DNA of 64,000 bases from a virus, in IMG/VR virus record IMGVR_UViG_3300008516_000204, positions 42,112 to 106,111 of that record. One strand, written 5' to 3'. A model generated the notes under the pieces. The model made no database searches, had not been told where the DNA came from, and saw nothing but the letters and a program-made list of their open reading frames with translations. Below are positions 2,610-61,957 of the stretch, in pieces. A program made the translations under genes and the position numbers. Every line of letters starts with the position of its first letter. Position 1 is the first letter of the stretch.

Positions 2610-3040
2610 TTAATTACTTAATAGGTATAGGACTAAGTTTGGTTCTTAGTGGTTTGATTGGGTGGGAACGAGAATCCCAAAAGAAACCAGCAGGACTGAG
2701 AGATGCTATGCTAATTTGTCTTGGTGCTACTATGTTTACTATTATCTCGCTTATTTTAAGGGATGTTCCTGCTTCTGAAGGAGTTAAGTATGATTTAGGA
2801 AGAATTATTGCTTACACTGTGGCTGGTGTCGGCTTTCTTGGTGGTGGGGTTATGCTAACCAATAAAAAGAAAATTGAGGGAATTACCACAGCAAGTATGC
2901 TTTGGGCGATTGTAGGTATCGGAATTTTATGTGGGTTAGGGGAATATTTATTGGCTAGCATTTGTACGGGAGCAATTTATTTAACCTTAAAATTAAAATA
3001 TGTTCAAATTAAAATAATTAAACAAAAAAATAAGAAATGA
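2606..3040 (+). CDS. MgtC/SapB-family integral membrane protein
   Basis: 144 aa with about four hydrophobic segments. The features of the MgtC/SapB N-terminal domain are clear: GLIGWERE near the N-terminus, PAGLRDAMLICLGATMFTI, the glycine-rich VAGVGFLGGGV, and IEGITTASMLW. MgtC proteins sit in the inner membrane and in pathogens modulate ATP synthase, Mg2+ homeostasis and survival in macrophages. The C-terminal ACT-like domain of some homologues is missing, which is common in short members. It is coupled by ATGA to both neighbours. In a phage it could tune host membrane energetics or ion balance, but this is inference. Confidence 0.85.
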   Translation: MINYLIGIGLSLVLSGLIGWERESQKKPAGLRDAMLICLGATMFTIISLILRDVPASEGVKYDLGRIIAYTVAGVGFLGGGVMLTNKKKIEGITTASMLWAIVGIGILCGLGEYLLASICTGAIYLTLKLKYVQIKIIKQKNKK

Positions 3041-3627
3041 GAAAATTAATATTATTAGCAATATTCATAAGTTTATCTATATATTTGATTAAGACGAATT
3101 TTGTAGAGCTTAAATATCATTTGCCCCTGCCTATAAAAATAGAAACCAGAGCAAATCTGACAGAGACTAAAAAAATGTTGCAGGGCAATCCGATGAAAAT
3201 AGCAAGATGGTTGGATAACAATATAACTGGAAAGTCAGATGGAAGAATTCAGTATGCCCAAACACCAGAAGAGACATTTGAGAGGCGCACTGGTGATTGC
3301 GAAGATTATAGTATTTTGGCAAAATATTTTTTAGATTCTCGATATGATGAAATTTATTTAATAATCTGGCAAGGAAAGTCTAAGTCCTCATCTGAACATT
3401 ATGCAAAGCGTAAACAACAATCAATATGTCACTGTATTTGTGTATTCAAGATAGGCGAAAAAATGTGGGGTATAATGGATAATAGCAATTTTATAATGGC
3501 TTATGGTTCAATAGAAGATATAGTTAAAGCAGATTGTGAATTTAGAGATACTAGGATTGGGCGTGCCTATATTGTGCGATTTACTCACTATATTTATCGA
3601 AGAATTAAGAAACTGGATATAAAATGA
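3037..3627 (+). CDS. Membrane-anchored transglutaminase-like cysteine protein (paralogue 1)
   Basis: 196 aa. An N-terminal hydrophobic segment (LILLAIFISLSIYLI) suggests export or membrane anchoring. The catalytic triad of the transglutaminase-like fold is visible: C88 in TGDCEDYSILAKYFL, H132 in SICHCICVF and D148 in WGIMDNSN. Bacterial members are mostly cysteine peptidases or amidases rather than cross-linkers. A second copy with the same plan lies at 24155-24724; both contain M-x2-NP/DP-x-KIA-x-W near the start of the domain. It is coupled to the MgtC-like and ClpP-like genes. Possible roles are envelope peptide cleavage, lysis or superinfection exclusion. Confidence 0.8.
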   Translation: MRKLILLAIFISLSIYLIKTNFVELKYHLPLPIKIETRANLTETKKMLQGNPMKIARWLDNNITGKSDGRIQYAQTPEETFERRTGDCEDYSILAKYFLDSRYDEIYLIIWQGKSKSSSEHYAKRKQQSICHCICVFKIGEKMWGIMDNSNFIMAYGSIEDIVKADCEFRDTRIGRAYIVRFTHYIYRRIKKLDIK

Positions 3628-4160
3628 CCAAGAGAAAGAAAAATAAGAAATCACGACGAGACAAATCCCGTGTCCTACATCTATTCAAGGAAATCAATAG
3701 CGATAGTGTTGAAAATATTATCACAAAACTCCTCGAATTAGATAGGGACAGGAAGCGGAGGCTCATTACCATTTATATAAATTCTCCTGGTGGGGATTGT
3801 GGTTCAGGATTTGCTCTCATCGATATTATGGAAAAATGTAAGTGCCCTATTAAAACAATCGCTGTGGGCGAGGTGGCGAGTATGGCTGTTCCAATTTTTT
3901 TGGCTGGAACGCAGGGAAGGCGCTATATCTCCAAGCATACATTTCTTATGATACATCCGCTTCATTTGGGAGCGAGGGATTATTTATCTTTCGCTAAATC
4001 GAGAGTGTTAAATGCCGAAGAACTTGAGAAATTGTATGACAACTATGTTATTGATAGAAGCAATTTACCTAAAAAGATTATAGATAAGGCAAAGACTAAA
4101 GAAGTATGGCTTAATGCTAAAGAGTGTTTAAAATATGGGTTGGCTGACAAGGAACTATAA
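3624..4160 (+). CDS. ClpP-like serine protease
   Basis: 178 aa, close to the usual ClpP length of about 195 aa. The oxyanion loop INSPGG is at 52-57, the catalytic serine is S86 in GEVASMAVPIFLAG, and the histidine is H111 in MIHPL. The third residue, usually Asp in a DRD-x-F/Y-M/L block, appears as TKEVWL, so Asp is probably replaced by Glu or supplied elsewhere. The C-terminal AKECLKYGLAD matches the family end. In phages ClpP folds often serve as prohead proteases, but this copy lies tens of kb from the virion genes, near two aminopeptidase genes. A Lys/Arg-rich 16-residue N-terminal tail replaces the usual axial loops. Confidence 0.85.
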   Translation: MTKRKKNKKSRRDKSRVLHLFKEINSDSVENIITKLLELDRDRKRRLITIYINSPGGDCGSGFALIDIMEKCKCPIKTIAVGEVASMAVPIFLAGTQGRRYISKHTFLMIHPLHLGARDYLSFAKSRVLNAEELEKLYDNYVIDRSNLPKKIIDKAKTKEVWLNAKECLKYGLADKEL

Positions 4161-4412
4161 ATGAAAAGGCTTAAGAAAATCAAGCAGATACAGAAATTTC
4201 AGAGGGCTTATACAGCCCTCACGAGTAAGCTATTCGAGGCTGTAAAAAATGATGAGCCAGACGATTTCAAGAAGCTGGTTATGGGTTATCTGATGGAACA
4301 GCAGAGATTGAATACGGAATTCTCTATGGACTTATTAAGGGCGATTCCAAAGGAAGTTGATAAGGACAGATTTGATAATATTATAAAACCATTAGAAAAG
4401 GAGATTGGATAA
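4161..4412 (+). CDS. Hypothetical protein, 83 aa
   Basis: It starts immediately after the ClpP-like gene's TAA and overlaps the next ATG by one base. Predicted mostly helical and charged (KRLKKIKQIQKFQRAY). No recognised motif. Its position directly downstream of the protease suggests co-expression only. Confidence 0.6.
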   Translation: MKRLKKIKQIQKFQRAYTALTSKLFEAVKNDEPDDFKKLVMGYLMEQQRLNTEFSMDLLRAIPKEVDKDRFDNIIKPLEKEIG

Positions 4413-4744
4413 TGCTAAAAAAAGACAGAGATAAGAGCAGAAAGATTCAAGCCAAAGAGAAGGATATCCCAAGAAAACTATCCTATTTCAATGAGTTTAT
4501 AGGACATATGAAAAGCATTATACTCCAAGGGACAGACAAATATACTGGGGCAGAAAAGGACAAAGCCGAAACTATAGATATTATGCCCCAAGTTGTCGGG
4601 GAAGATGGGTATGTGAGTTTCATTATCTGTGATATATTAAAGAGGTTGATTAGGTTCAAGAATGATAGGAGAGAGAGAGATATAATCAAAATAGCTGTCT
4701 GGTGTTATTTACTGTTAAAATTTTATAAGGATAAACACAAATGA
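4412..4744 (+). CDS. Hypothetical protein, 110 aa
   Basis: The N-terminus is lysine-rich, followed by helical segments. A central VVGEDGYVSFIICDILKRLIRF stretch and the C-terminal CYLLLKFYKDK suggest a compact helical domain. It couples to the methylase by ATGA. The distribution of residues resembles small phage proteins that manage nucleotide-modification clusters, but I do not recognise a family. Confidence 0.55.
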   Translation: MLKKDRDKSRKIQAKEKDIPRKLSYFNEFIGHMKSIILQGTDKYTGAEKDKAETIDIMPQVVGEDGYVSFIICDILKRLIRFKNDRRERDIIKIAVWCYLLLKFYKDKHK

Positions 4745-5295
4745 AAAAATATCAAATTATATATGTAGATCCTCCTTGGTCTTACAACGATCAAGGTTGT
4801 CAAGGAACAATGGCAAATCATTATAAAGGTATGAAACTGGAGGATATTAAGAATCTTCCTGTGAACCAAATAGCCGATAAGAATAGTATATTATTTTTAT
4901 GGACAACTTATCCAATGTTGCAAGAGGCATCGGAAGTGATAAAGGCATGAGGCTTTCAATACAAGAGTATTGCCTTTCAATGGGTCAAACTAAATCCCAA
5001 AGCCCTAACCCCTTTCTATGGATTAGGGAGACGGACACGGGGTAATACAGAACCATGTTTATTGGCAACAAAAGGTAAGCCTAAAAGAGTAAGTGCCTCT
5101 GTTTTTCAACTAATATTTGCTCCTCGCAGAAAGCATAGTCAAAAACCAGATATAGCAAGAGATAAAATCATTCAACTAGTAGGAGATTTACCTCGTATAG
5201 AATTGTTTGCTACAGAGAAAATAAAAGGATGGGATTCAATAGGTTATGAGATCGATGGCAAGGATATACGAGATGTTTTACAGGAGATGATATGA
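4741..5295 (+). CDS. MT-A70-type DNA adenine methyltransferase interrupted by one in-frame TGA
   Basis: The frame continues with full homology across a TGA at 4948-4950 (codon 70 of 184). The N-terminal part holds YVDPPWSYNDQG (DPPW catalytic motif), HYKGMKLEDIKNLPV and ILFLWTTYPML. After the stop come GFQYKSIAFQWVKLNP, GLGRRTRGNTEPCLLATKG and the C-terminal RIELFATEKIKGWDSIGYE. Together these form a complete phage MT-A70 (N6-adenine) methylase. In relatives the stop position is usually tryptophan (W-G-F), so one G-to-A change, or UGA read as Trp, explains it. TGA also ends many normal genes here, so general recoding is unlikely. Without readthrough the product is two inactive pieces. Confidence 0.8.
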
Positions 5296-6206
5296 AAACA
5301 AATAAAAATCTTAATTATTATATCAAGGTCTGTAAGAAATTGATAGATAGGCCATACAATAAATTCAATCTGGGCAACTATCGAGGCATTATGGCATCTG
5401 AATATGATACCCCTGTTTACTCCTACCCAACAAAATCAGATAGCCCGATTAAGTTGATGGCAGGACAGCATAGAGAAGCCCAGATTATTTCCACCGATTA
5501 TCAATTTAAGCATAATAAAAGGCGAATTATCTTGGTGGGAAAAGGGATTTTATTTGATTCAGGTGGATATAATCTAAAGCCCAAAATGGTGAATATGAAA
5601 AGTGATATGGCTGGGATGGCTGTCTCATTTGCTGTAGCTTCTTATTTTAAAAAGCAAAATGATGTAATTGCCTTCTGCCCTGTTGCAACGAATTTTCTTG
5701 ATGGAAATCAGATAATCCCTGGCGATGAAATAAAAATAGGTAATAAAATTGTTAAAATAACCAATACAGATGCGGAGGGAAGATTGATTTTAGCCGAGGC
5801 ACTTTCTGAATTAAAAGTCAAACCCACAGATATAGTAATCACAGTTGCGACTTTAACTGGGGTTGTGGGCTATGCGATAGGTGATAAGGCTACTGGCGTT
5901 TTTAGTCCTAATAAAAGATTGGCAAATAAGTATTTGGAAGCATCTAAAAAGGCAAAAGAACTGGCATGGGAATTGCCCTTATGGGATTATTTGCAGAAGC
6001 ATTTTGATAAGAAGAAAATTAAAAATGTCCAGAAGATAAATCCAGGTGCCTCAATGGGAGCAATGTTTCTCAAGCAATTTGTTAGATATCCCCAAAACTG
6101 GTTACATCTCGATATCGCTTATTCTGCTTGGGATAAGAAAAAGGAAAAGGCAACTGGTGAGCCAATTAAATCGTTAGTTCAATTTATAGAAAGGATAGGG
6201 CAGTAG
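5292..6206 (+). CDS. M17 leucyl-aminopeptidase-like metallopeptidase (catalytic domain only)
   Basis: 304 aa. The M17 signatures are intact: GKGILFDSGGYNLKP (metal-binding K84 and D89), KSDMAG (D105) and NTDAEGRL at 158-165 (D160, E162, R164). The C-terminal PGASMGAMFLKQFV, LDIAYSAWD and ATGEPIKSL also match the family. Cytosolic leucyl aminopeptidases (PepA) are di-zinc enzymes removing N-terminal residues, usually as hexamers of ~500-aa chains; here most of the N-terminal macro-like domain is missing. The spacing between D89 and D105 is two residues shorter than in PepA. A methionine aminopeptidase follows 1.3 kb downstream and a ClpP-like protease lies 1.1 kb upstream. Confidence 0.9.
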   Translation: MKTNKNLNYYIKVCKKLIDRPYNKFNLGNYRGIMASEYDTPVYSYPTKSDSPIKLMAGQHREAQIISTDYQFKHNKRRIILVGKGILFDSGGYNLKPKMVNMKSDMAGMAVSFAVASYFKKQNDVIAFCPVATNFLDGNQIIPGDEIKIGNKIVKITNTDAEGRLILAEALSELKVKPTDIVITVATLTGVVGYAIGDKATGVFSPNKRLANKYLEASKKAKELAWELPLWDYLQKHFDKKKIKNVQKINPGASMGAMFLKQFVRYPQNWLHLDIAYSAWDKKKEKATGEPIKSLVQFIERIGQ

Positions 6207-6208
6207 AT

Positions 6209-6409
6209 ATGTCGCTGAAACGGTCTATTGTTATCGATGATAGGCACTGTATATGCAAAAATTGCAAGCGTAGTAATGTCTGCCCAATCTATACTAAATA
6301 CCAGAAAATGCTTGACTTGATGGAGAATATCGAACCCGATAAATATTTGATTAAGATAACAGCACATATTAGGAAATGCAATAACTTTTTATCAGACGAG
6401 GAGGTGTAA
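6209..6409 (+). CDS. Small cysteine-rich protein, 66 aa
   Basis: Two bases after the peptidase stop. Cysteines arranged as C-x-C-x2-C near residues 14-19 (HCICKNCKRSNVCP) and another near the C-terminus (RKCNNF) could bind zinc or an Fe-S cluster. Function unknown. Confidence 0.6.
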   Translation: MSLKRSIVIDDRHCICKNCKRSNVCPIYTKYQKMLDLMENIEPDKYLIKITAHIRKCNNFLSDEEV

Positions 6410-6410
6410 A

Positions 6411-6758
6411 ATGACGAAGATGATTCCATGTTTTGTGTGTTCCAAATTAGTTGAGGCGATTGAGGACAAGGCGATAGCGAAACTGTGTCCCGAACACGAT
6501 ACAGCCCAGAATCGAGAGGAAATGCGTAACACTCCAGTTCATCAGCTCTTGAGAAGGCTCAATGATTCCATTCAGAAGCAGGTTGACCAAGTTACGAATG
6601 ATGTAGGAACGACCAATGCCAAGTATGAGGAAATCAGGCAGGAACTGGTTATTTTGCAGGGCAAGATAGACAGCTTGGAGACGACCCCAGCATCAGCACC
6701 TGTGGTTGAAGAACCGAAAGATACCACAAAATTAAATGAATATGGTGAGTTGATCTAA
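6411..6758 (+). CDS. Small zinc-binding/coiled-coil protein, 115 aa
   Basis: Preceded by a strong GAGGAGGTG ribosome site. The N-terminus has CFVCSKLVE and CPEHD, a likely CxxC...CxxH zinc knuckle. A helical segment with heptad-like spacing (LLRRLNDSIQKQVDQV through LVILQGKIDSLE) follows, then a proline/acidic tail. This plan suggests a small adaptor or oligomer. No family recognised. Confidence 0.6.
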   Translation: MTKMIPCFVCSKLVEAIEDKAIAKLCPEHDTAQNREEMRNTPVHQLLRRLNDSIQKQVDQVTNDVGTTNAKYEEIRQELVILQGKIDSLETTPASAPVVEEPKDTTKLNEYGELI

Positions 6759-6776
6759 TTTTTGAAAGGGAATAAA

Positions 6777-6941
6777 ATGACAGATGTTCAATTTCGAATA
6801 ATGCAAGAAGCTGTAGCTAATCTGCTTAAAGTAAAAGACGAGATGGCTAAAGGTCTATTTGAAATGTATAAGGCATATCAGAAAGCAGGCTTTAAGAAGA
6901 AAGAGGCTATGGAGTTGTTGAAAACTATTCTGAAACCATAG
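6777..6941 (+). CDS. Hypothetical helical protein, 54 aa
   Basis: Reads MTDVQFRIMQEAV to TILKP, with a GAAAGGG ribosome site 7-8 bases upstream of the ATG. Predicted as two amphipathic helices (FEMYKAYQKAGFKKKEAMELL) resembling a small helix-turn-helix. Function unknown. Confidence 0.6.
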   Translation: MTDVQFRIMQEAVANLLKVKDEMAKGLFEMYKAYQKAGFKKKEAMELLKTILKP

Positions 6942-6949
6942 GGGATAGA

Positions 6950-7282
6950 ATGAAGAAAAGTTTGGTAGGGTGGGCTAAAAGTGAACAATGGTTTTTAGGT
7001 CTTATTAAAACAGTAATGGAAGTTAAAAAAGTTCCTTTCTGGTTATTTGAAGATAAAGATTTTATGGCATCTATTACTTTTGGGGCTTCTTGTTTTTATT
7101 GTGAAGAAGATTTTTTATATTGGTTGGATAAATTCTTAAATGGGCTTTCAAGACATTCTCAAGAATTAGTTAATAGAGTATCTTGTATAAGAATAGTAGA
7201 AGAACTAAAAAGAAGATATGATTTGACAGATGAAAAAGGCAAGAAAGAAATTAGAGAGGAATTGTCAAAGATCACATATTAA
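6950..7282 (+). CDS. Hypothetical protein, 110 aa
   Basis: Begins 8 bases after the previous stop behind a GGGGAT site. Rich in aromatics (EQWFLGLIKTVMEVKKVPFWLF, FYCEEDFLYWLDKFL), with a charged helical C-terminus (YDLTDEKGKKEIREELSKI). No recognised motif. Confidence 0.55.
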   Translation: MKKSLVGWAKSEQWFLGLIKTVMEVKKVPFWLFEDKDFMASITFGASCFYCEEDFLYWLDKFLNGLSRHSQELVNRVSCIRIVEELKRRYDLTDEKGKKEIREELSKITY

Positions 7283-7291
7283 GGAGAATAA

Positions 7292-7507
7292 ATGGAGAAA
7301 AATACCATCACAATAGGCAATGTCATCAGGCTTACGCAGGAGAATGGGCGATATACTGTTGAAGAAAAAACCGATGGCAAATGGATAGAGATAGCGAGAT
7401 TTGCTCTGGGAATTGATATGATTACCTATGTCAAGGGCTATCTGGATGAGTATGTTGAGCAGATGAAACGATATGGCAACAATATAGAAGAACAGAAGGA
7501 AAAATGA
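7292..7507 (+). CDS. Hypothetical protein, 71 aa
   Basis: An AAGGAG site precedes the ATG by 6-7 bases. The N-terminal half is beta-like (ITIGNVIRLTQENGRYTVEEK), the C-terminal half helical and acidic. It overlaps the methionine aminopeptidase start by ATGA, so the two are probably co-translated. Confidence 0.6.
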   Translation: MEKNTITIGNVIRLTQENGRYTVEEKTDGKWIEIARFALGIDMITYVKGYLDEYVEQMKRYGNNIEEQKEK

Positions 7508-8217
7508 TTAGACTTAAGACAGATAAAGATATTCAGTTAATTGAGAAGGCAATCGAAATAGGAAAAAATGCTTTATCGGTTGCCAAGCAAATTACTGTTG
7601 TCGGGATTACTACACAGGAGATAGATAGGCAAGTGGAAGCATACATTCTTAAAAAGGGTGCCGCTCCCTCGTTCAAAGGCTACAAGGGCTTTCCTACTGC
7701 TTGTTGTATAAGTTTGAATAATGAGATAGTACATGGATATCCCAGAGATAACAAGATAAAAAGCGGTGATATAGTCAAGATAGATATTGGTATATGCTTT
7801 AAGAGCAGATATTCCGACCAAGCAATTACATTTGTAGTTGGAGAAGGCAAGTCTAAAAAGCATCTTGATTTAGTATATACAACCAAACTGGCATTAGAGA
7901 GAGCAAAAAAGGTTGCTATTCCAAATAATACTTTGAATCAGATTTCGTGGGAAATACAGCGAACAGCACAGGAAAATGGATTGGGTATAGTTACTGCTTA
8001 TACAGGACATGGCGTGGGTTTTGAAATTCACGAAGAACCAATTATCAGAAATATTGTTACTCCAAATGAAAATATGCGATTAGTAAAAGGAATGGTGTTG
8101 GCTATTGAGCCGATGTTTGCATTAGGAAAGGGCGATGTTGAAGATAAAGGATATGCTGTTGTAACTAAAGATAATAGTATGTCCTCCCATTTTGAGGAAA
8201 CAATTATCGTAAGATGA
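7504..8217 (+). CDS. map: Methionine aminopeptidase, type I
   Basis: 237 aa, close to the ~264 aa of bacterial type I enzymes, without extra domains. Metal ligands of the pita-bread fold are all present: D94 in KIDIGI, D105 in YSDQAITF, H169 in YTGHGVG, E202 in AIEPMF and E231 in HFEET. The substrate histidines H78 (EIVHGYP) and H176 are also present. The enzyme removes initiator methionine from nascent proteins in the cytosol. It overlaps genes on both sides by 4 bases. With the M17 and ClpP-like genes it forms a peptidase-rich segment unusual for a phage, perhaps to mature abundant virion proteins or alter host turnover. Confidence 0.93.
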   Translation: MIRLKTDKDIQLIEKAIEIGKNALSVAKQITVVGITTQEIDRQVEAYILKKGAAPSFKGYKGFPTACCISLNNEIVHGYPRDNKIKSGDIVKIDIGICFKSRYSDQAITFVVGEGKSKKHLDLVYTTKLALERAKKVAIPNNTLNQISWEIQRTAQENGLGIVTAYTGHGVGFEIHEEPIIRNIVTPNENMRLVKGMVLAIEPMFALGKGDVEDKGYAVVTKDNSMSSHFEETIIVR

Positions 8218-10514: not shown

Positions 10515-10808
10515 TTGAGTCTGCATAAGACATTGAAGCCGAGAAGAAAAAAGGTTCGTTCCGTTCTAAAGAGACATGAAAGATTGGCAAAGGCTATTAG
10601 GGAACGGAATTGGCTCAAAAAGATGGGTGCATATGGTTTACCCAAGTTTAACCCACTAAAATTTAAAGTGAAAAAGAAAGAGGAAGAAGAGCAAACAACT
10701 ACATTAGGTAAAGTTGATATTGTAGCACAGCATAAATTAGAGAAAGAAAAATTAAGAGAAGAAAAAAAACAGAGAAAGAAAGGGAAAGATACAACTGGAA
10801 TAAGATGA
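10515..10808 (+). CDS. Basic hypothetical protein, 97 aa (TTG start)
   Basis: TTG at 10515 lies behind an AAGGAGGA site overlapping the previous stop region. Strongly basic (HKTLKPRRKKVRSVLKRHERL) with a Glu/Lys-rich C-terminal half. It overlaps the following endonuclease ORF by ATGA. Probably a nucleic-acid-associated protein; not recognised. Confidence 0.5.
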   Translation: MSLHKTLKPRRKKVRSVLKRHERLAKAIRERNWLKKMGAYGLPKFNPLKFKVKKKEEEEQTTTLGKVDIVAQHKLEKEKLREEKKQRKKGKDTTGIR

Positions 10809-11407
10809 TTAAATATTGCCTATGTGGTAATAAAATAGATAAAAGGTCTAAAAATTGTAGAATATGTGCTAACTTGGGAATAAATAATCCAAGATATGAA
10901 TTTAGTAAATATAATATAACTAAAGAATTTTTGATAGAAGAATATCTTAATAATAGAAATTCCATTTCTCAAATTGCAAGAAAGAAAAAATGTTCCGAAT
11001 CTTGTATTTATAGTAAATTGAAGAAATTTCAAATTCGGATTAGGACAAGAAGCGAAGCTAATAAAGGAATAAGTAGAGGTTTGGGTAAGAAACGACTTCC
11101 TTTTACAAAGGTGTGGAAAAGAAGAATTAGTGAAAACCATGCAGATTTTTCTGGTAAAAATAATCCCAGATTTGGTAAAAGATTATCCAAATAAACGAGA
11201 AGAAAAATCAGAACTACAAAAGTCAAACATCATGTTTATTTAAAAGAAAATAAAGACGATACGGTACTTATTAAGCAATCAATTCATCGTAAATTACACG
11301 CATATGCTTATAATTATTTAGTAGAACTTGGTTTAATTAAAAAATATATTAAATGGTTTGAAAAAAAATTGAAAATAAAATTAATGAAAACTATGGGGAG
11401 GAAATAA
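10805..11407 (+). pseudogene. HNH-like homing endonuclease broken by an in-frame TAA
   Basis: The first 129 codons contain a four-Cys ribbon (CLCGNKIDKRSKNCRICANLG) and a helix-turn-helix segment (YNITKEFLIEEYLNN...IRTRSEANKG), then the start of a NUMOD3-like element (GKNNPRFGKRLSK). A TAA at 11192-11194 stops the frame, but it continues open to 11407 with TRRKIRTTKVKHHVYLKENKDD, SIHRKLHAYAYNYLVE and IKKYIKWFEKK. That tail matches the nuclease end of the endonuclease at 25987-26628. In NUMOD3 elements the stop position is usually Glu (LSKETRRKI), so GAA-to-TAA is the simplest event. The nuclease domain is probably not made. Confidence 0.75.
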
Positions 11408-22330: not shown

Positions 22331-22383
22331 AAAAATGTCCAGAATGTGGTATTTTCGATTCTGAAATTGGCAAATTTCTATGA
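22327..22383 (+). CDS. Possible truncated zinc-ribbon ORF, 18 aa
   Basis: Overlaps the upstream TGA by ATGA and encodes MKKCPECGIFDSEIGKFL, the start of a typical phage zinc-ribbon protein, before stopping at the ATG of the endonuclease. It may be a gene cut by the endonuclease insertion. Too short to be certain. Confidence 0.3.
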   Translation: MKKCPECGIFDSEIGKFL

Positions 22384-23147
22384 AAAGGTATAAAAGAAAC
22401 AGAGAAGTTAAACATTATAATGTGAAAAAGAATAATCCTATGTTTGGATATGATAAATATAATATAACCAAAGAATTTTTTGTTCAAGAATATAGCAAAA
22501 ATAAGAAATTGCAAAATGAGATAGCAAGAAAAATAGGATGTAGTTCTACTTATATAAGAGATAAATTGATTAAATATAATATCCCCATTAGAACTAAAAG
22601 TGAGACAATGAAAGGAAAAAATAAAGGTAAAGAGGCTAATAGGTATAACCCAGAAAGACATAAGACACATTATTGTAAAGAATTAAACTGTAATAACGAA
22701 ATAACTTATAGTGGTTGGAAATATTATGGTGGTAGATGCAAATCTTGTGCAAGTAAAAGAGAGACAAAAAAACTCTGGCAAAATGAAAAATTTAGAGAAA
22801 AAGTTACCAGAGCTATTTTTAAGGCTTCTAAAATAAAACCAAATAAACCAGAGAAAAAATTAAATAGATTGCTTCAAAAATTATTACCAGAAAAGTATAG
22901 ATATGTTGGTGCTGGTCAAATAATTTTAGGGGGTTTTAATCCAGATTTCATTAACTGCAATGGACAAAAGAAAATTATAGAACTTTATGGTAATTATTGG
23001 CATAATCTTCCAGCATATAAGAAAAGAGATAAAAGAAGATTGGTTACCTATAAAAAATATGGCTATAAAACTTTAGTCATATGGCAATATGAACTAAAAG
23101 ACATGAATAGATTAATAGAAAAAATACTACAATTTAATGGAGAATAA
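22380..23147 (+). CDS. Homing endonuclease, Vsr-like (EDxHD-type) nuclease domain
   Basis: 255 aa. N-terminal residues ~25-80 form a helix-turn-helix module (YNITKEFFVQEYSKNKK ... IPIRTKSETMKG) and residues ~95-125 a zinc ribbon (CKELNCNNEI ... CKSCASKR). The nuclease end carries NPDFINCNGQKKIIELYG, YWHN and KKRDKRRLVTYKKYGY, matching Vsr/very-short-patch-repair-like homing endonucleases such as I-Bth0305I (acidic residues, WH and RD). A paralogue is at 58034-58780. It overlaps the upstream 18-codon ORF and seems to have been inserted in this operon; it is probably selfish DNA. Confidence 0.8.
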   Translation: MKRYKRNREVKHYNVKKNNPMFGYDKYNITKEFFVQEYSKNKKLQNEIARKIGCSSTYIRDKLIKYNIPIRTKSETMKGKNKGKEANRYNPERHKTHYCKELNCNNEITYSGWKYYGGRCKSCASKRETKKLWQNEKFREKVTRAIFKASKIKPNKPEKKLNRLLQKLLPEKYRYVGAGQIILGGFNPDFINCNGQKKIIELYGNYWHNLPAYKKRDKRRLVTYKKYGYKTLVIWQYELKDMNRLIEKILQFNGE

Positions 23148-24110: not shown

Positions 24111-24154
24111 ATATAGAAAAAGAGAAAGAATTTTTAATTAGGAAGGAAATATTG

Positions 24155-24724
24155 GTGAAAAAGTTTACAAAAAAACTTTCGTTGATTACAAGTATCGCAG
24201 TAGGATTATTACTATCTTTATTTGTGCTAATTAATTTATCTGCTTCTGAACCGACTATAGATGAAGTTAAAAAGGAATTGAATGGAGATCCTTATAAAAT
24301 TGCACAATGGATGGGTAGGAATATTAGAACATCAAAGGATAGTATAGGTTATTCTCAACCAGCTAAATACACTTACAAATATAAAAAAGGTGATTGTGAG
24401 GATTTTGCCATTCTTGCTCGTCATTTTATTGGGGATAAATACGAAACCCATTTAGTAGTATGGACTGGAAAATTTAGAGAAGATTCTAAATTCTATAAAA
24501 AATACAAGGCTAAAAAGATATGCCACGCAGTAGTAGCCATTAAGTTACATGTAAACAATTGGGGAATTATAGACCAAGATAAATATATTCCCAATGGCAG
24601 AACTCTAGCAGCTATAATTAAGATTAATTGCGATTTAAGAAGAATTAAAGTGACAGGAGCTTATATAGCAGATTTATATAGATTTAGGAATAAAATAATT
24701 AAAGAGATAGATTTAGATGAATAA
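24155..24724 (+). CDS. Exported transglutaminase-like cysteine protein (paralogue 2)
   Basis: 189 aa from GTG 24155 (GGAAGGA seven bases upstream). The N-terminal KKLSLITSIAVGLLLSLFVLI with following ASA-type residues looks like a signal anchor. The triad is C81 in KGDCEDFAILARHFI, H124 in KICHAVVAI and D140 in WGIIDQDKY. It is a paralogue of the gene at 3037-3627 (both share the M-x-G-N/D-P-x-KIA-W pattern). It ends overlapping a small membrane ORF. Probably acts outside the cytosol on peptide or amide bonds; substrate unknown. Confidence 0.8.
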   Translation: MKKFTKKLSLITSIAVGLLLSLFVLINLSASEPTIDEVKKELNGDPYKIAQWMGRNIRTSKDSIGYSQPAKYTYKYKKGDCEDFAILARHFIGDKYETHLVVWTGKFREDSKFYKKYKAKKICHAVVAIKLHVNNWGIIDQDKYIPNGRTLAAIIKINCDLRRIKVTGAYIADLYRFRNKIIKEIDLDE

Positions 24725-38638: not shown

Positions 38639-38839
38639 ATGAATGAATATTGGATAGTACATACAAATTGTGATTGTTGTAGTTCTAGAACACTTAAAGC
38701 AGCAACGAAATGGAAATTTGGTCCAAGGTGTCCTAGTTGTAAAAAAATATTAGGCATAATGCAATATTCAATTCAAAAAATTATAAAAGCACAAAACTTA
38801 GATCATGCTTTTGAAATATGGAGAAATAGTGAAAAATGA
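38639..38839 (+). CDS. Small zinc-ribbon protein, 66 aa
   Basis: NCDCCSSRTLKA and PRCPSCKKILGIM resemble a zinc ribbon. Overlaps the terminase ATG by 4 bases, so it is co-translated with packaging. Confidence 0.55.
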   Translation: MNEYWIVHTNCDCCSSRTLKAATKWKFGPRCPSCKKILGIMQYSIQKIIKAQNLDHAFEIWRNSEK

Positions 38840-41313
38840 AATTAACTAATAAAGAACGAAAACTGTGGTTCCAGAAAATTTTGAGTCGGCGAGATAACTG
38901 CAAAAATCTGAGGGCTTTTGTCTATAATATCTTTGGGGTAAAATTATATTCTAACCAAGTAAAATCGTTGAGAGATTTTTTAGACCCATCTATTAAGAAA
39001 GTTTTATTTTCATGTGCTCGCCAGGGTGGAAAAACAATGGATATTGCGATTGCTTGTGCAATCATTCCAATATTTTATGATAACATTCATATGTATATTT
39101 TTGCCCCAAAACAGGAGCAGGCACAAATCAGCTTTGAACGGTTTTCCAGCCTTGTCCATACCAATCCCTATAATATCTATGCTGGCTCATTAGCTGTAGA
39201 TAAGTCAGATAGAATTAAATTCTCAAATGGGACAGAGATTAGGGCTGTAACCGCCTCACGAAATGCGGAAATCGAGGGATTAACTTGCCATATCATAGTG
39301 CTTGATGAAGCCCAAGCAATATCACCATTTAAGGTGCGAGAATGTGTTTCTGGTAATATGAGGATTCCTTTACCAACTGGTGATTATGCAACTATGCCTG
39401 AAATTATTAAGAAACAACTTAAAGTTATTACTCCTGATGGTCCAGAAAGGCCAATTAGATATTTCAATGCTGGTATAGATATTCTACATGCTATTTATTT
39501 AGATAATGGGAAAATTTTAAAAGTAAATAAAAATCATAAGCATCTTGTTTACAGCAAAAATTGGAGAGATATAAAATCAGGGGCGGTAAAGAAATTGAGA
39601 ACAGATGAGTTAAAAGTTGGTCATCGTTTAGCTGTAGCAGATAAATTACCTTATTTTGGTAACGAGGGTACCTATGACGATGGTCTTATAGTAGGTAGTT
39701 TTTTAGGCGATGGATCTATTTGTAATGATAAACCAGAATTTTGTGGGTGTCCTAAATTTGTATCTATAATATCATCTGTTATATGGAAAAAGTATAATTT
39801 GAAATTTAAACTTAAGCCAATAAAATCTAAAATTTTGGAAGGCGTATTTACAAATAATAAAGGGGGGAAATGGAATAGTAATCCTTTAACAAAATATTTT
39901 CGTGATATGGGAATGTGGGGAATGAAAGGCGAATTTAAACAGATTCCTAATAAGCAATGGTCTAAGAAATTTCTTCGGGGTCTAATAGTTGGTCTTATTG
40001 AGACTGATGGTTGTATTAGTCATGTTAAAGAAAAAAAGGGAATTATATCATTTGGTAATATATCCAAAGAATTAGTAATCCAATTGCAAGATTATTTAGT
40101 TAAATTTGGAATACACGGCACCATTTTTCACAAAAAGAATAATAAAGGATTTGGTAAAAATCCTAAACCTTTTTATATTCTATCCATTAAGGGTATTGAA
40201 GATATTCGCAGATTCCATAAAAACTTCCAATTGATTACCAAGCAAAAAGTTTTAAACGAAATTGTTGATAATATGAAAAATAAGTCTCCAAGAATTTCCA
40301 GTAGGCACTATCCTAAAGGAATACGATTTATGCAGATTAAAAAAATTGAACAATCGGAGACAGAAAATGTTTATTGTGTTGAGGTCAAAAAGCATTTATG
40401 GATAGTTGATGGAATTATTACAGGAAATAGCATTTACCCAATGGGTGGAGCGGTTCCTGGCGGGGCTAAAATTATTCAGTGCGGTGTCCCAGGTGTTCGG
40501 GGGACACATTTTCACAAGGCGTTCAAAAATAAGTACGACCAAAAGATTAATCCTTTAGGTTATGTACAACATATCTATCCTTGGGATAAATGCCCTATTT
40601 TAGACAGAGACTATGTATTGGCAAGAAAGGCAGAAGACCCAATCAGTTTCGCAACCCAGTATGAACTAAGCTGGGAAAAGTCCAATATCGGAATGTTCTT
40701 ATCCGAGGAAGATTGGGCACGCTGTATCGTTCATTATGAGCTCAGGGATAAGAAAGGCAAGCCCCTGCGTGGCGAGTTTATGGGCATAGACTTTGCAAAA
40801 TTAAGGGATTCCACTGTCATTACAGAACTGAGGCAAGATCCAGACCATCTTGAGCAGTTTTATGTAGTAGGCTGGTGGGAACTCTCTGGGGTGGACTACG
40901 CCTCACAGATAGGTTTTATTAAGAACTTATGGCACAATGAGTTAAAGCAGATATATGCTGATAAATCATCTGTAGGAGAAGGGCCTTTGGATGTATTAAG
41001 GCAGACAGGCATGCCCATTGAGGGCTTTAATTTCGATATTCAGCATAAGGATAAATTATACAAGAACTTGGCAAACTTCATCCAAAAAGGGCAGATACAC
41101 TGGCCAGCCTCGACTCCAAGAGGCTTTGAAAAGGAATATGCACATTTTAAGCAACAGATGATGGAATTGGAAAAGGAGTTCAAGCTATCGGGACTTATCT
41201 CTGTCCACCACAATTTGGATGATTCTCTGGGGAGAGATGATTTTCCCGATTCGATAGCTCTGGCTGTATGGGCAGCTACTCACTTTATTGAGCCTTCGGC
41301 ATATACTGCATGA
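38836..41313 (+). CDS. terL: Terminase large subunit, interrupted by an intein
   Basis: 825 aa with a 362-aa intein, leaving a 463-aa spliced terminase. ATPase: Walker A CARQGGKT at 60-67 and Walker B HIIVLDEAQ with D157/E158. Intein insertion is after E169, ten residues past Walker B. The nuclease domain begins at GIDFAKLRDSTVI with further acidic residues in IYADKSSVGEGP and DDFPDSIALAVW. It is the motor that cuts and translocates phage DNA into the prohead. It is far from the virion module on the opposite strand. Confidence 0.92.
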   Translation: MKLTNKERKLWFQKILSRRDNCKNLRAFVYNIFGVKLYSNQVKSLRDFLDPSIKKVLFSCARQGGKTMDIAIACAIIPIFYDNIHMYIFAPKQEQAQISFERFSSLVHTNPYNIYAGSLAVDKSDRIKFSNGTEIRAVTASRNAEIEGLTCHIIVLDEAQAISPFKVRECVSGNMRIPLPTGDYATMPEIIKKQLKVITPDGPERPIRYFNAGIDILHAIYLDNGKILKVNKNHKHLVYSKNWRDIKSGAVKKLRTDELKVGHRLAVADKLPYFGNEGTYDDGLIVGSFLGDGSICNDKPEFCGCPKFVSIISSVIWKKYNLKFKLKPIKSKILEGVFTNNKGGKWNSNPLTKYFRDMGMWGMKGEFKQIPNKQWSKKFLRGLIVGLIETDGCISHVKEKKGIISFGNISKELVIQLQDYLVKFGIHGTIFHKKNNKGFGKNPKPFYILSIKGIEDIRRFHKNFQLITKQKVLNEIVDNMKNKSPRISSRHYPKGIRFMQIKKIEQSETENVYCVEVKKHLWIVDGIITGNSIYPMGGAVPGGAKIIQCGVPGVRGTHFHKAFKNKYDQKINPLGYVQHIYPWDKCPILDRDYVLARKAEDPISFATQYELSWEKSNIGMFLSEEDWARCIVHYELRDKKGKPLRGEFMGIDFAKLRDSTVITELRQDPDHLEQFYVVGWWELSGVDYASQIGFIKNLWHNELKQIYADKSSVGEGPLDVLRQTGMPIEGFNFDIQHKDKLYKNLANFIQKGQIHWPASTPRGFEKEYAHFKQQMMELEKEFKLSGLISVHHNLDDSLGRDDFPDSIALAVWAATHFIEPSAYTA
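39343..40428 (+). mobile_element. Intein in terminase large subunit, LAGLIDADG type, 362 aa
   Basis: Begins with Cys170 (CVSGNMRIPLPTGDYATM) and ends with VDGIITGN531, followed by extein Ser532 (SIYPMGGAV). Block B-like segment is KVNKNHKHLVY. Two LAGLIDADG motifs are present, GLIVGSFLGDGSI and GLIVGLIETDGCI, so the homing nuclease is probably intact. The C-terminal block reads VYCVEVKKHLWIV. The insertion is in frame, at the conserved ATPase core where loss would be lethal without splicing. Confidence 0.9.
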
Positions 41314-43820: not shown

Positions 43821-44531
43821 TTACAATATTCCTAATTTAACTAAATCTGGCTTCATTAATACTCTTATTTTGACTCTAGGATATTTTATCTTAAATAATT
43901 CAAATTTTTTCTTAGCGTCATCCCGCCAATAACCTTTTATTTCGATATAAGTATTTGTTTTTGGTAAATAAAAATCTGGTATATAACTTGTTTTACCTAA
44001 ATCAAAAGTTTTGGGTTCATAGAACCATCTAATTCTATCACTATCTAAATATTTTGCATAACCTATTTCCCATCCAGAACGCATATTAATTTTTTTATAA
44101 ATTCCCCATTTACCATGAACTACTTTACCATACATTGGGTTGTTTTTACCCTCATAAGAACGCCTAGTTTTTACATTTAATTTAGTGGCACAAAATCGAC
44201 ACCTCCCTTTTCCATACTTCCAAGTTTGGTAGGTTATTTCTTTGTTACATTCTAGTTCTTTGCAATAATACTTTTTTATCCATCTGCCATCAATATAACT
44301 GGCATTATTTTTTCCTTTAGTTGCACAAGATTGACATGTTTTATTTCCATAATAAAAAGTTGTATAAGAAATTTCATTTATTTTACAACTAATACAGTAA
44401 TACTTTCTTCTAGTTATTCCATTTTTCCAATTAGGATTATGCTCTCCCAAATTAGAACAAACTCTACAAAAATTAGCTCTTTTATCTTTTAATTTGCCAC
44501 AGACACATAAATCTTTAGAATGTCTTGGCAT
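43821..44531 (-). CDS. Homing endonuclease, PD-(D/E)XK type with zinc ribbons
   Basis: 236 aa from ATG 44531, overlapping the upstream TAA (TAATG). Zinc ribbons occur at the N-terminus (CVCGKLKDKRANFCRVCSNLG), then CISCKINEI..CQSCATKG and CKELECNKEI..CRFCATK. The nuclease end has NMRSGWEIGYAKYLD, FDLGKTSYIPDFYLP and TYIEIKGYWRDD, the E...PDF...EIKG core shared with the copy at 59860. Selfish gene inserted between structural-end genes. Confidence 0.75.
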   Translation of the reverse strand: MPRHSKDLCVCGKLKDKRANFCRVCSNLGEHNPNWKNGITRRKYYCISCKINEISYTTFYYGNKTCQSCATKGKNNASYIDGRWIKKYYCKELECNKEITYQTWKYGKGRCRFCATKLNVKTRRSYEGKNNPMYGKVVHGKWGIYKKINMRSGWEIGYAKYLDSDRIRWFYEPKTFDLGKTSYIPDFYLPKTNTYIEIKGYWRDDAKKKFELFKIKYPRVKIRVLMKPDLVKLGIL

Positions 44532-45169
44532 TAGAATTTCCATCTATAATATAATATCATCCTGTTATCGCCCTTATATCCTTTTCCTACACCCAAACCT
44601 ATATTTGAATTATCTGTAATTTTATATGACGAACCTAAATAGATACCTCGATTAGTCAAGAATGTTTCTAATTCCAGTTTCCAGTATCTAAGGAATGAGA
44701 TGCCAACTCCTCCTTCAAAAACACCGCCTTCCAATCCAAAGCCCGCTCCCATAACACCAATCGGCTTCAACTGAAATCCCACTGGGGCAAGTTTCTTCTT
44801 AAGTCCTGGAATATCTGCCACAGATAACTGTTTTAAAATATTCTCATCTTTATCTCTAAAATAAACAAATCCTTTCTTATCAATATAAACATGGTCTCCT
44901 TGTTCATTAACTTCTAAAATAGCCTCTCGCCCATATCCAATATCTATCTTTACTGGTTTGCTCCCTCTTCCCTGTACATAAAAGTAACTCGCTACAAAAC
45001 CAAATATAAAAGCATAAATAATTAATTTTCGCACATTAAAAAGCGAAAAAATATCCTTCAGCCACAGAACTGGGTTAAACAAATTTAACATACTATTAGT
45101 AAATTTCTTGCCAGAAACTTTCTCTCTATATTTCCATTTTTTGCCTACGCTACAATTATTTCTGTTCAT
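44531..45169 (-). CDS. Membrane-anchored hypothetical protein, 212 aa
   Basis: A single hydrophobic span (KLIIYAFIFGFVASYFYV) follows a basic N-terminus, giving an N-in/C-out anchor. The distal region is glycine- and aromatic-rich with alternating strands (GAGFGLEGGVFEGGVGISF, NIGLGVGKGYKGDNRMILYY), reminiscent of beta-barrel or outer-membrane-like folds. Located at the end of the virion operon, before an endonuclease; possibly related to lysis or host interaction. Not identified. Confidence 0.5.
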   Translation of the reverse strand: MNRNNCSVGKKWKYREKVSGKKFTNSMLNLFNPVLWLKDIFSLFNVRKLIIYAFIFGFVASYFYVQGRGSKPVKIDIGYGREAILEVNEQGDHVYIDKKGFVYFRDKDENILKQLSVADIPGLKKKLAPVGFQLKPIGVMGAGFGLEGGVFEGGVGISFLRYWKLELETFLTNRGIYLGSSYKITDNSNIGLGVGKGYKGDNRMILYYRWKF

Positions 45170-58033: not shown

Positions 58034-58780
58034 TTACTTTGCTCCTATATTGTTAAATACTAAAATTCTATTTTTTACTCTGCCTAAATCTTTCAGTTCG
58101 TGCTCCCAAATAATAAGAGTTTTGTAACCATATTTCTTATAAGTTATTAATCTTTGTTTATCTCGTTTCTTATAATCTGCTAAATTGTGCCAATAATCTC
58201 CATAGAGTTCTATTATCTTTTTCTGACCATTCACATTTATAAAATCTGGATTATATCTATTAATAATAAATTCCCAATTACCAACATACTTATATTCCTT
58301 GGGTAATAGTTTCTTGAGAAGTTTATTCAACATTTTTTCTGGTTTATTGGGTTTAGTATTTAATGCTTTTAATCTTGCTTTCATTACTTTTGTTACATAT
58401 TTTTTATCTTGCCAATGTTTCGTTGTTGCTATTCTACTTGCGCAAGATAAACACCTTCTGCTACCTCCATAAAACCAATTAGCATAACTTATTTCATTAT
58501 TACAACCTTTTTCTATACAAAAGTGTTTCTTATGCCTTTCTGGATTACGAATCTTTCCTAAATTTTTTTCTCTCAATTTTTCTTTAGTTTCTTCAGTACG
58601 ATGCCTACCAATTAATGCCTCGCTAACTGTTCTGATAGGAATATTATATTTAATCAAATTTCGTCTTACTGTCTCTGATTTACACCCTATCATATTAGCA
58701 ACTTGTTGCATAGATTTTTCATTTTTACTATACTCTTCTACCAAATATTCTTTAGTTATATAGTATTTTATTTTTGTCAT
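58034..58780 (-). CDS. Homing endonuclease, Vsr-like nuclease with HTH and zinc ribbon
   Basis: 248 aa from ATG 58780; a second in-frame ATG lies at 58798. The helix-turn-helix is KYYITKEYLVEEYSKNEKS ... IPIRTVSEALIG, the zinc ribbon CIEKGCNNEI...CLSCASR, and the nuclease end PDFINVNGQKKIIELYG, DYWHNL, KKRDKQRLITYKKYGY. It is a close paralogue of the gene at 22380-23147. It lies between two connector genes. Confidence 0.8.
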   Translation of the reverse strand: MTKIKYYITKEYLVEEYSKNEKSMQQVANMIGCKSETVRRNLIKYNIPIRTVSEALIGRHRTEETKEKLREKNLGKIRNPERHKKHFCIEKGCNNEISYANWFYGGSRRCLSCASRIATTKHWQDKKYVTKVMKARLKALNTKPNKPEKMLNKLLKKLLPKEYKYVGNWEFIINRYNPDFINVNGQKKIIELYGDYWHNLADYKKRDKQRLITYKKYGYKTLIIWEHELKDLGRVKNRILVFNNIGAK

Positions 58781-58886
58781 CTTTATTCCAATACTCAATT
58801 CCTAATAAAAAATTCTGAGTCTACTAAATATAATTTGCCAGCAAACTCTTTACGCTGATACAATTAGGTATTTATAATTGTTATTA

Positions 58887-59859: not shown

Positions 59860-60522
59860 TCATAGCACCTTCAGATTTTTCAAATCTTTTTGCATTAATA
59901 TTTGTAATTTAATATCTGGATACTGTTTTAAGAATTTCTTGATTTTAAAATAAGCTATTTCACTCATATAACCTTTTATTTCTACATAAACACTATCAGA
60001 TAATTTAAAATCAGGTGTGTAAGTTGTACTGCCTAAATCGAAGGTTTTAGGTTCATATTGCCATTTAATTCCTAATTTATCCAAATATTTCGCAAATTTT
60101 ATTTCCCAAGAACTTCTCATATTTATTCCTTTATATTTTCCCCATTTTGGTAGTTTTGTTTGTCTTCCATAAAAAGGAGAATTTTTTCCTGCCATTCTCT
60201 TACTATGTTTTGGTCTTTTCTTTCCTGTCCAATATCCTACTTTTCCAAACATGGGATTATTTGAACCTTGATGATTATGTTTACCTATATTACCTAATCT
60301 AATTTTATTTTTATGCTCTTCTGTTTTGAAAATTCCTTTAAGTGCTTCGCTTAAAGTTCTAATAGGAATATTGCATTCTATTAATCTTCGTCTTATAGTT
60401 AATCGTTCACAATTTATTATATTAGCCACTTTTTGCATAGATTTTTTATTTTTGATATACTCCTTTATTAAAAATCCTTTAGTTATATCATGCCTATAAT
60501 TTGAATTATTTTTATCTAACAT
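59860..60522 (-). CDS. Homing endonuclease, HTH plus PD-(D/E)XK nuclease
   Basis: 220 aa from ATG 60522, overlapping or abutting the preceding gene's end; an alternative start is at 60540. The HTH is YRHDITKGFLIKEYIKNKKS ... IPIRTLSEALKG; NUMOD-like GSNNPMFGKVGYWTGKK follows. The nuclease end is NMRSSWEIKFAKYLD, FDLGSTTYTPDFKL, YVEIKGYM, close to the copy at 43821-44531. A free-standing selfish gene in the virion module. Confidence 0.78.
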   Translation of the reverse strand: MLDKNNSNYRHDITKGFLIKEYIKNKKSMQKVANIINCERLTIRRRLIECNIPIRTLSEALKGIFKTEEHKNKIRLGNIGKHNHQGSNNPMFGKVGYWTGKKRPKHSKRMAGKNSPFYGRQTKLPKWGKYKGINMRSSWEIKFAKYLDKLGIKWQYEPKTFDLGSTTYTPDFKLSDSVYVEIKGYMSEIAYFKIKKFLKQYPDIKLQILMQKDLKNLKVL

Positions 60523-60523
60523 C

Positions 60524-61957
60524 TTAAAAATTACTCCCAAAGAATATAGAGTTGTCTACTGCTACATCCCTCGCAAAAAAATTGTCTACATAAAAAGTGT
60601 TATCGGCATCTGCGTTTATTATTTTTATTATTATCTGGTCTATATCATCTTTATCACCATCAGCAATTCCAGATATATCCCAAGTTTTAGTTTCCCAAAC
60701 TCCCGCTGAAGAAATTGCAATATCCTTAGTATGTGTTGTATAATCTGCTTCCATCATCTCTATTTCCTTGACTGCCCAGACAATTTGACTCTCAGATGGG
60801 TTAGCGTTTGCCAACAATCGCCAATATCTATGAGAAGAAGTTGTCTCAGTTACATCCTTGGTTTGAAAACTACCATCCTTCACAAGAGAAAACGTTTGAA
60901 GCGATGTCCAGGCAGAACCATTATCGCTATATTGCAATATGACAGAATCTATATTATTATCACCAATATATTGCTGAATGGTAAATCTTGCTACTGCTAT
61001 ATCATTCCCAGCTCCTCTATCATAGCCGATGTATGCAACACCACTTACGCCTCCATTTCTTTGTGCTGAAGCCCAAAAAGTTCCAGTATCATCATCAAAT
61101 GCTCGCTCTTTTACACGTTCCGCGTCGTCGCCTCCACTAATAGCTGAACCACCAATGCATAAATCAGCAGTATAACCAAGTTGTTTCAATTGTAATTGAA
61201 TATTAGTCCCTGTTCTGGAAGCATAAACATCTACTTTAATTTCATCTTTGTCTGTTAAGTCTATAGATAATCCAGATTTAGTTAATGTATCGTTTAAAGA
61301 ATCTGTTTGAAACGCTATTGCTTTAAGAGAATATGCACCTTGTGTTTTAATAGTATCTTCGGAATAGCATTGAAGATTAGGGTTTCCATAAAGGTAGAAG
61401 CAAGTATCAACAGTTGACCAAGAATACCAGCTCCCCTGAAACTTGTAATTTCCATTCCCTTCATGTGTTGGAGTTGAAGAATCACGACCAACATAAATAG
61501 GCTGATTTAAAACATTATCACCATTAATGACTATACAATAATCTCCAGCCGAAGCAAGATATGGTGTTGAGAAAGTAAAAGTTACTAAAGCATAGACTAC
61601 TCCAATACCAGAGCTATCCACCGCATCTGAAGTAGCAAGTGCAGAACCAGTAGGTATTGCATTTGTTCCAACAGTTCCTGTAGCTGCATATATCATTGCA
61701 TATAAGTTTCCAGTTGGTGCAGTTACCCTTTTTAAATAGAATTTTACACTAGTTATAATAGTTTGAGTAGTTAAAGTTATTGCTTGTCCAGTTTCGGTGA
61801 ATCGGTTTTCATCGTCTCCTTGAATCCTTGAATCACTATCTTGATTTGCTTCTGAGTAGAAGTCAATAGTAGATATTGTAGTATCACTACTCACATAATT
61901 GGCTTGAACACTTGCATCGCTAGCGTATTCCATATAATCAAGTTCCAATTTTGCCAT
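60524..61957 (-). CDS. Virion protein with anchor-R-like and discoidin (F5/8 type C) domains, 477 aa
   Basis: N-terminal half: QAITLTTQTIITSVKFYLK, IPTGSALATSDAV, YCIVINGDNVLNQ, similar to the choice-of-anchor R domains of the tail-tip gene. C-terminal half: AERVKERAFDDDTGTFWAS, YDRGAGNDIAVARFTIQQY, ILQYSDNGSAWTSLQ and YWRLLAN, the pattern of a discoidin/F5-8C carbohydrate-binding domain. Likely a fibre or decoration protein that binds glycans. Immediately downstream is a homing endonuclease. Confidence 0.7.
   Translation of the reverse strand: MAKLELDYMEYASDASVQANYVSSDTTISTIDFYSEANQDSDSRIQGDDENRFTETGQAITLTTQTIITSVKFYLKRVTAPTGNLYAMIYAATGTVGTNAIPTGSALATSDAVDSSGIGVVYALVTFTFSTPYLASAGDYCIVINGDNVLNQPIYVGRDSSTPTHEGNGNYKFQGSWYSWSTVDTCFYLYGNPNLQCYSEDTIKTQGAYSLKAIAFQTDSLNDTLTKSGLSIDLTDKDEIKVDVYASRTGTNIQLQLKQLGYTADLCIGGSAISGGDDAERVKERAFDDDTGTFWASAQRNGGVSGVAYIGYDRGAGNDIAVARFTIQQYIGDNNIDSVILQYSDNGSAWTSLQTFSLVKDGSFQTKDVTETTSSHRYWRLLANANPSESQIVWAVKEIEMMEADYTTHTKDIAISSAGVWETKTWDISGIADGDKDDIDQIIIKIINADADNTFYVDNFFARDVAVDNSIFFGSNF

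Follow-up and report, generated by a model that had tools for sequence, protein, structure and literature searches.

Why would a tailed phage encode three different peptidases within a few kilobases of its genome? The question is raised by a stretch of 64,000 nucleotides (hereafter the window), which comprises bases 42112–106111 of the 106,111-base IMG/VR virus record IMGVR_UViG_3300008516_000204 (G000). Its plus strand carries the genes of a ClpP-like S14 serine peptidase of 178 amino acids (aa) (positions 3624..4160; Pfam PF00574, CLP_protease, 116.9 bits), a minimal M17 aminopeptidase of 304 aa consisting of the catalytic domain only (5292..6206; PF00883, Peptidase_M17, 220.9 bits), and a type I methionine aminopeptidase (MetAP) of 237 aa (7504..8217; PF00557, Peptidase_M24, 144.6 bits). 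An earlier note, made from the letters alone, had placed three peptidase genes at positions 3624–8217, and the profile searches bear this out: all three are intact, co-oriented open reading frames (ORFs) within 4.6 kb, in one densely packed rightward gene block. The enzymes are real, and most of them are predicted to be active. On balance, we take them to be an accessory protein-processing gene set of the phage, which would combine methionine excision, trimming by the M17 enzyme and cleavage by a cytosolic ClpP-like peptidase. The enzymatic activity, the substrates and any functional coupling of the phage enzymes are what we infer from the genes, their active sites and folds, and their recurrence.

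The record is a complete phage of bacteria, and the peptidase genes belong to that phage. An identical 99-base sequence at both ends of the record forms a direct terminal repeat, which indicates a complete circular assembly. Outside the window are encoded a Phage_capsid protein, a portal protein and a Peptidase_S78 prohead protease; the latter adjoins the capsid and portal genes in a separate module, far from the ClpP gene and on the opposite strand. The terminal repeat and this module together identify the record as a complete phage. The gene cluster is found again on a second contig, IMGVR_UViG_3300028837_001914 (L005), and the encoded proteins are virtually identical to those of the window.

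Which function of the set is best supported? The MetAP exceeds the cut-off of the NCBIfam equivalog TIGR00500 (227.9 bits versus 171.35), and its metal ligands and catalytic residues (H77, D94, D105, H169, H176, E202, E231), corresponding to the five metal ligands and two catalytic histidines of type I (M24A) enzymes, are all in place. Solved MetAPs align with it end to end, the best PDB match being 1o0x (E = 7e-49). About 8.5 kb upstream of the ClpP gene, on the same strand but outside the window, the phage also encodes a peptide deformylase (PDF; G000:36674-37213, corresponding to L003:16674-17213), which passes the NCBIfam equivalog TIGR00079 (109.9 bits versus 103.95) and contains the motifs GIGLSANQ, EGCLS and HEIDH. 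PDF and MetAP represent both enzymatic steps of N-terminal methionine excision: the deformylase would take off the formyl group from proteins made during infection, and MetAP would then remove methionine where the second residue is small. Since both proteins lie above their equivalog cut-offs, methionine excision is the best-supported function of the set, and it is likely, judging from these matches, that the two enzymes perform it.

Relatives of the MetAP with 30–39% identity were found in 29 other IMG/VR loci, many of them from contigs longer than 180 kb, so that a phage MetAP is uncommon but not unique. Among annotated phage isolates there are few confirmed cases, one of them in Vibrio phage V6Aob; it should be noted that many INPHARED "phage" matches to M17 and MetAP were not counted, being unannotated contigs or records named or annotated as bacterial. 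Phage PDFs are widespread, with at least 600 matching stretches in our scan. A role in sustaining translation products in the course of infection has been proposed for them, and they occur in huge phages (PMC7162821); phage Vp16 has a known peptide deformylase (PMC5591237).

A related PDF (L094:10001-10540) is 70% identical, and other genes of its contig match the window phage at up to 83%. Both proteins carry a C-terminal Cys/His extension (RKIGRNERC..C..KYK.H....HGF), which the PDFs of L006, L081 and L084 do not have. A reading of this tail by eye as SEC-C-like found no support, the sole match being a sub-threshold zf-C2H2_3. In the same contig, the homologue (L094:6221-9781) of a 764-aa protein of the window phage (G000:33750-36044) is split by approximately 1.3 kb, which holds a stretch resembling the product of window positions 38836-41313 and is possibly an inserted element.

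The minimal M17 family of tailed phages is our most distinctive result. The seven active-site residues (K84, D89, K96, D105, D160, E162 and R164) are invariant across an alignment of 30 sequences, and the two-metal site is complete. The AlphaFold model of the monomer (pLDDT 85.0, pTM 0.90) superimposes on PDB M17 structures with TM(query) of 0.80–0.88 and TM(target) of only about 0.5–0.6, the latter because the N-terminal domain is missing. At 304 aa, the protein does not contain the N-terminal domain of the PepA-type leucyl aminopeptidases; it falls below every NCBIfam leucyl-aminopeptidase cut-off, and its matches start at about residue 166–255 of the full-length models. The residues and the model give us good confidence that the M17 protein is an active aminopeptidase, which would trim short peptides as a minimal leucyl-type enzyme.

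Short M17 orthologues of 302–307 aa, with 57–63% identity, were found in five other viral contigs (L006, L037, L038, L040 and L092), and separate, longer M17 genes (488 and 459 aa) in phage contigs L041 and L042. PHROGs gave no match to the phage M17, and BFVD, a library of viral structures, offered a single close match, a giant-virus M17 from Mimiviridae ChoanoV1 (A0A5B8IGY4). The view that M17 and MetAP are unusual finds in a tailed phage is supported, and the short M17s constitute a small, unusual viral family. Two other short-M17 phages also encode M50-type membrane metalloproteases (L006:2066-2749 and L086:9463-10134), a further peptidase of this lineage.

A short M17 of the phage type was also observed at L039:1276-2196, on a 5.2-kb contig of an Omnitrophota metagenome-assembled genome (MAG), with cellular genes around it; no second M17 match occurs in this genome. 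It was the one cellular relative to emerge from a single scan of genome contigs, for which the patterns were tailored to the phage family; patterns of this kind miss distant M17s. In the phylogenetic tree, the six sampled short M17s are united with full support and separated by a long branch from the full-length Omnitrophota M17, with the MAG protein as the sister of the window protein (support 97/90). Among 237 Omnitrophota genomes, 85 gave an M17 match, a close one only in the genome of L039; the other four genomes of its family have no short M17. According to the tree, the short M17 gene appears to have moved between phages and bacteria, either direction being possible, and an Omnitrophota-like host is suggested as a lead only. 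Acquisition of the gene from a typical Omnitrophota host was considered and is unsupported: the M17 frames listed for the phylum are mostly full-length and on a separate branch.

For the ClpP-like protein, the picture is more complex. Its AlphaFold model (pLDDT 85.8, with a low-confidence basic N-terminal tail) has the S14 fold, with T. thermophilus ClpP as the best PDB match (TM 0.85). Ser86 and His111 of the triad are kept, while the third position, in TKEVWL (residues 158–163), is occupied by Glu, in contrast to the Asp of the cellular ClpPs in the comparison. The same Glu occurs in L081 (record G004) and L086 (record G035), both from short-M17 phages, and not in L006. Thus, the catalytic residues described earlier as intact or nearly intact are fully intact in M17 and MetAP, and "nearly" applies to the ClpP-like protein alone. 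We leave its class open because it scores below both the ClpP cut-off (TIGR00493, 87.2 versus 308.6) and that of ClpP-related head maturation proteases (NF045542, 64.8 versus 120). The fold and residues suggest that it is probably an active peptidase, a cytosolic S14 enzyme that would cooperate with an unfoldase of the host or act on substrates that are small or unfolded. As the earlier note supposed, phages commonly have ClpP-like genes, and the same is true of PDF genes.

How closely are the three genes linked? Neighbouring genes of the block overlap by up to 4 bases or are separated by gaps of up to 18 bases, which makes co-transcription likely, yet no more specific to the three peptidases than to the genes around them. 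The earlier description as one phage operon is loose; since eight other genes separate the ClpP-like, M17 and MetAP genes, the term fits the long gene block and not a dedicated three-gene unit. A promoter and terminator scan of the region found promoter-like and terminator-like sites at a frequency no higher than in shuffled sequence.

The start of the ClpP gene is overlapped by a gene (3037..3627, plus strand) for a transglutaminase/DUF553-like protein with a hydrophobic N terminus (PF04473, 29.1 bits); a 32% identical paralogue at window positions 24152-24724 also has a hydrophobic N terminus, and both are possibly exported. Between ClpP and M17, on the same strand, lie an 83-aa ORF of unknown function taken from the ORF list (4161..4412), a gene for a weakly DUF3310-like protein (4412..4744; PF11753, 20.5 bits, below the cut-off of 24) and a broken MT-A70 adenine methyltransferase gene (4741..5295), both halves of which match PF05063 and phrog_359. 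This methyltransferase gene, which is unrelated to the peptidases, is interrupted at 4948-4950, where an in-frame TGA takes the place of an expected Trp codon; L005 has the same TGA. A stop-recoded genome as the cause was rejected, as 24 of 100 ORFs with 100 aa or more stop at TGA, a common normal stop here. Five small plus-strand ORFs of unknown function, assigned from the ORF list and their spacing, occupy 6209..7507 between M17 and MetAP. Elsewhere, a six-member paralogous zinc-finger/HTH family, homing endonuclease-like by eye, is dispersed through the genome on both strands (window 10805-11194, 22380-23147, 43821-44543, 58034-58798 and 59860-60540, and G000:286-1134).

Does the combination recur in other phages? 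ClpP was present in six of eight distinct M17-bearing phage records, covering two separate M17 lineages, and the two records without it are contigs of 49 and 54 kb; the corresponding figure for MetAP-bearing records without M17 was 12 of 29 (Fisher p = 0.12). The association of ClpP with M17 is therefore suggestive only, and the phages are partly related. Of the five short-M17 lineages whose records were searched for PDF completely or for the greater part, three had it. All MetAP-bearing records longer than 250 kb (9/9; G009, G021, G024–G027, G029, G030 and G032) encode PDF and two adjacent ClpP genes, with these and MetAP similarly arranged, and these nine probably constitute one related group. 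Of 80 PDF loci, 8 had a ClpP gene at a distance of no more than 10 kb, the near-identical second contig supplying one of the eight. The open-licence literature that we searched yielded no report of a phage with M17, ClpP and PDF together.

Could the enzymes then act as one coupled pathway, as the earlier note proposed, in which ClpP makes peptides that M17 and MetAP trim, so as to provide amino acids or adjust N-end-rule turnover? The tight, co-oriented packing of the three genes within 4.6 kb, the six of eight M17 records with ClpP in two lineages, and a distance of only about 1.1–1.5 kb between ClpP and MetAP in phages L008 and L010 agree with such a pathway, but eight genes are interleaved, the arrangement is not syntenic in relatives, the ClpP–M17 enrichment is not significant, and MetAP was missing wherever else a phage record with M17 was tested. 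Moreover, the substrates of MetAP are nascent chains, not ClpP products, which also counts against coupling. We consider the full pathway rather unlikely. The PDF outside the window adds weight to its N-terminus-trimming half; a single peptide-degradation route is plausible, but neither it nor an N-end-rule role is supported in the form first proposed. A peptide-recycling route formed by ClpP and M17 is a tentative proposal, with the odds clearly against it. We are slightly more sceptical of its extended form than of the full pathway; here a minimal M17 family, mainly of tailed phages, would act downstream of a divergent Ser-His-Glu phage ClpP and give these phages their own recycling from protein to peptide to amino acid, in this genome with PDF/MetAP excision in addition.

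Other explanations concern the genes separately. The best PHROG for the ClpP-like protein is phrog_94, a head maturation protease, so that it could serve the head, with M17 and MetAP as accessory genes unconnected to it; this is very improbable, and a head-maturation role was rejected on account of the S78 protease beside capsid and portal and the failed NF045542 cut-off. With the S78 protease in its own capsid and portal module, the ClpP-like protein is not needed for head maturation. M17 might instead be kept for DNA metabolism, like E. coli PepA in Xer recombination, given that its neighbours include SbcC/SbcD-like genes (L037, L038), RecA (L006), a primase-helicase and a RuvC-like gene (L040) and MT-A70 (window), all but MT-A70 named by eye. 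The DNA role of PepA depends on its N-terminal domain. The short M17s are all without this domain and have kept all catalytic residues, the M17 of L092 lies by eye some kilobases from large late-type genes and not among replication genes, and replication-type neighbours may simply reflect the early region; we regard a DNA role as quite improbable. Finally, host or chimeric contamination, which the earlier note had named as its own refutation, could be suspected from the Omnitrophota contig, where a short M17 with 58% identity stands among cellular genes. The terminal repeat, the virion genes (capsid, portal and prohead protease), the near-identical second contig and the short M17s of five further phage contigs exclude it for practical purposes.

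An accessory protein-processing gene set is thus the reading we prefer, and several observations weigh against it. The co-occurrence of ClpP with M17 is statistically indistinct from the MetAP-carrier background, among phages that are partly related, and MetAP and M17 occur together in the window phage only, the other short- and long-M17 records tested having no MetAP. The ClpP-like protein has Glu in place of the triad Asp in alignments with both PDB and phage ClpPs, and a basic tail instead of the canonical N-terminal segment, which is present in the phage ClpPs of L008 and L010. A search of the phage for an AAA_2 unfoldase of the ClpX/ClpA type gave no match.

Enzymes for N-terminal maturation together with enzymes for peptide trimming are not what one generally expects a phage to encode. 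If those of this set are active, a mid-sized phage would control the N termini of proteins made during infection, and possibly recycle amino acids, without relying on its host. The short M17s also provide a natural experiment on the purpose of the N-terminal domain in M17 enzymes. No established scheme is upset, as PDF, ClpP-like proteins and, less often, MetAP have already been seen in large phages.

Taken together, the comparison with known systems shows what is shared and what is new. The PDF has the conserved motifs of other phage deformylases (cyanophage; Vp16, PMC5591237; huge phages, PMC7162821) and, like them, lies above the TIGR00079 cut-off, differing by its Cys/His extension. The MetAP corresponds to the type I enzymes (TIGR00500, with 1o0x as the closest solved sequence) in full length, metal ligands and equivalog score, and differs in being phage-encoded. 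With ClpP (TIGR00493) and the ClpP-related head proteases (NF045542, phrog_94), the ClpP-like protein shares the S14 fold and the Ser and His of the triad; it differs from both in its triad Glu, the missing canonical N-terminal segment and the two failed cut-offs, and from the head proteases in being a stand-alone gene away from the head module. The M17 protein has the catalytic domain, fold and seven active-site residues of leucyl aminopeptidase, PepA and PepB; unlike the PepA-type enzymes (approximately 500 aa) and PepB (approximately 430 aa), it is without the N-terminal domain and below the leucyl-aminopeptidase cut-offs. Its only close viral structural match, the ChoanoV1 enzyme, is a protein of 523 aa from a giant virus of eukaryotes, with 29% identity.

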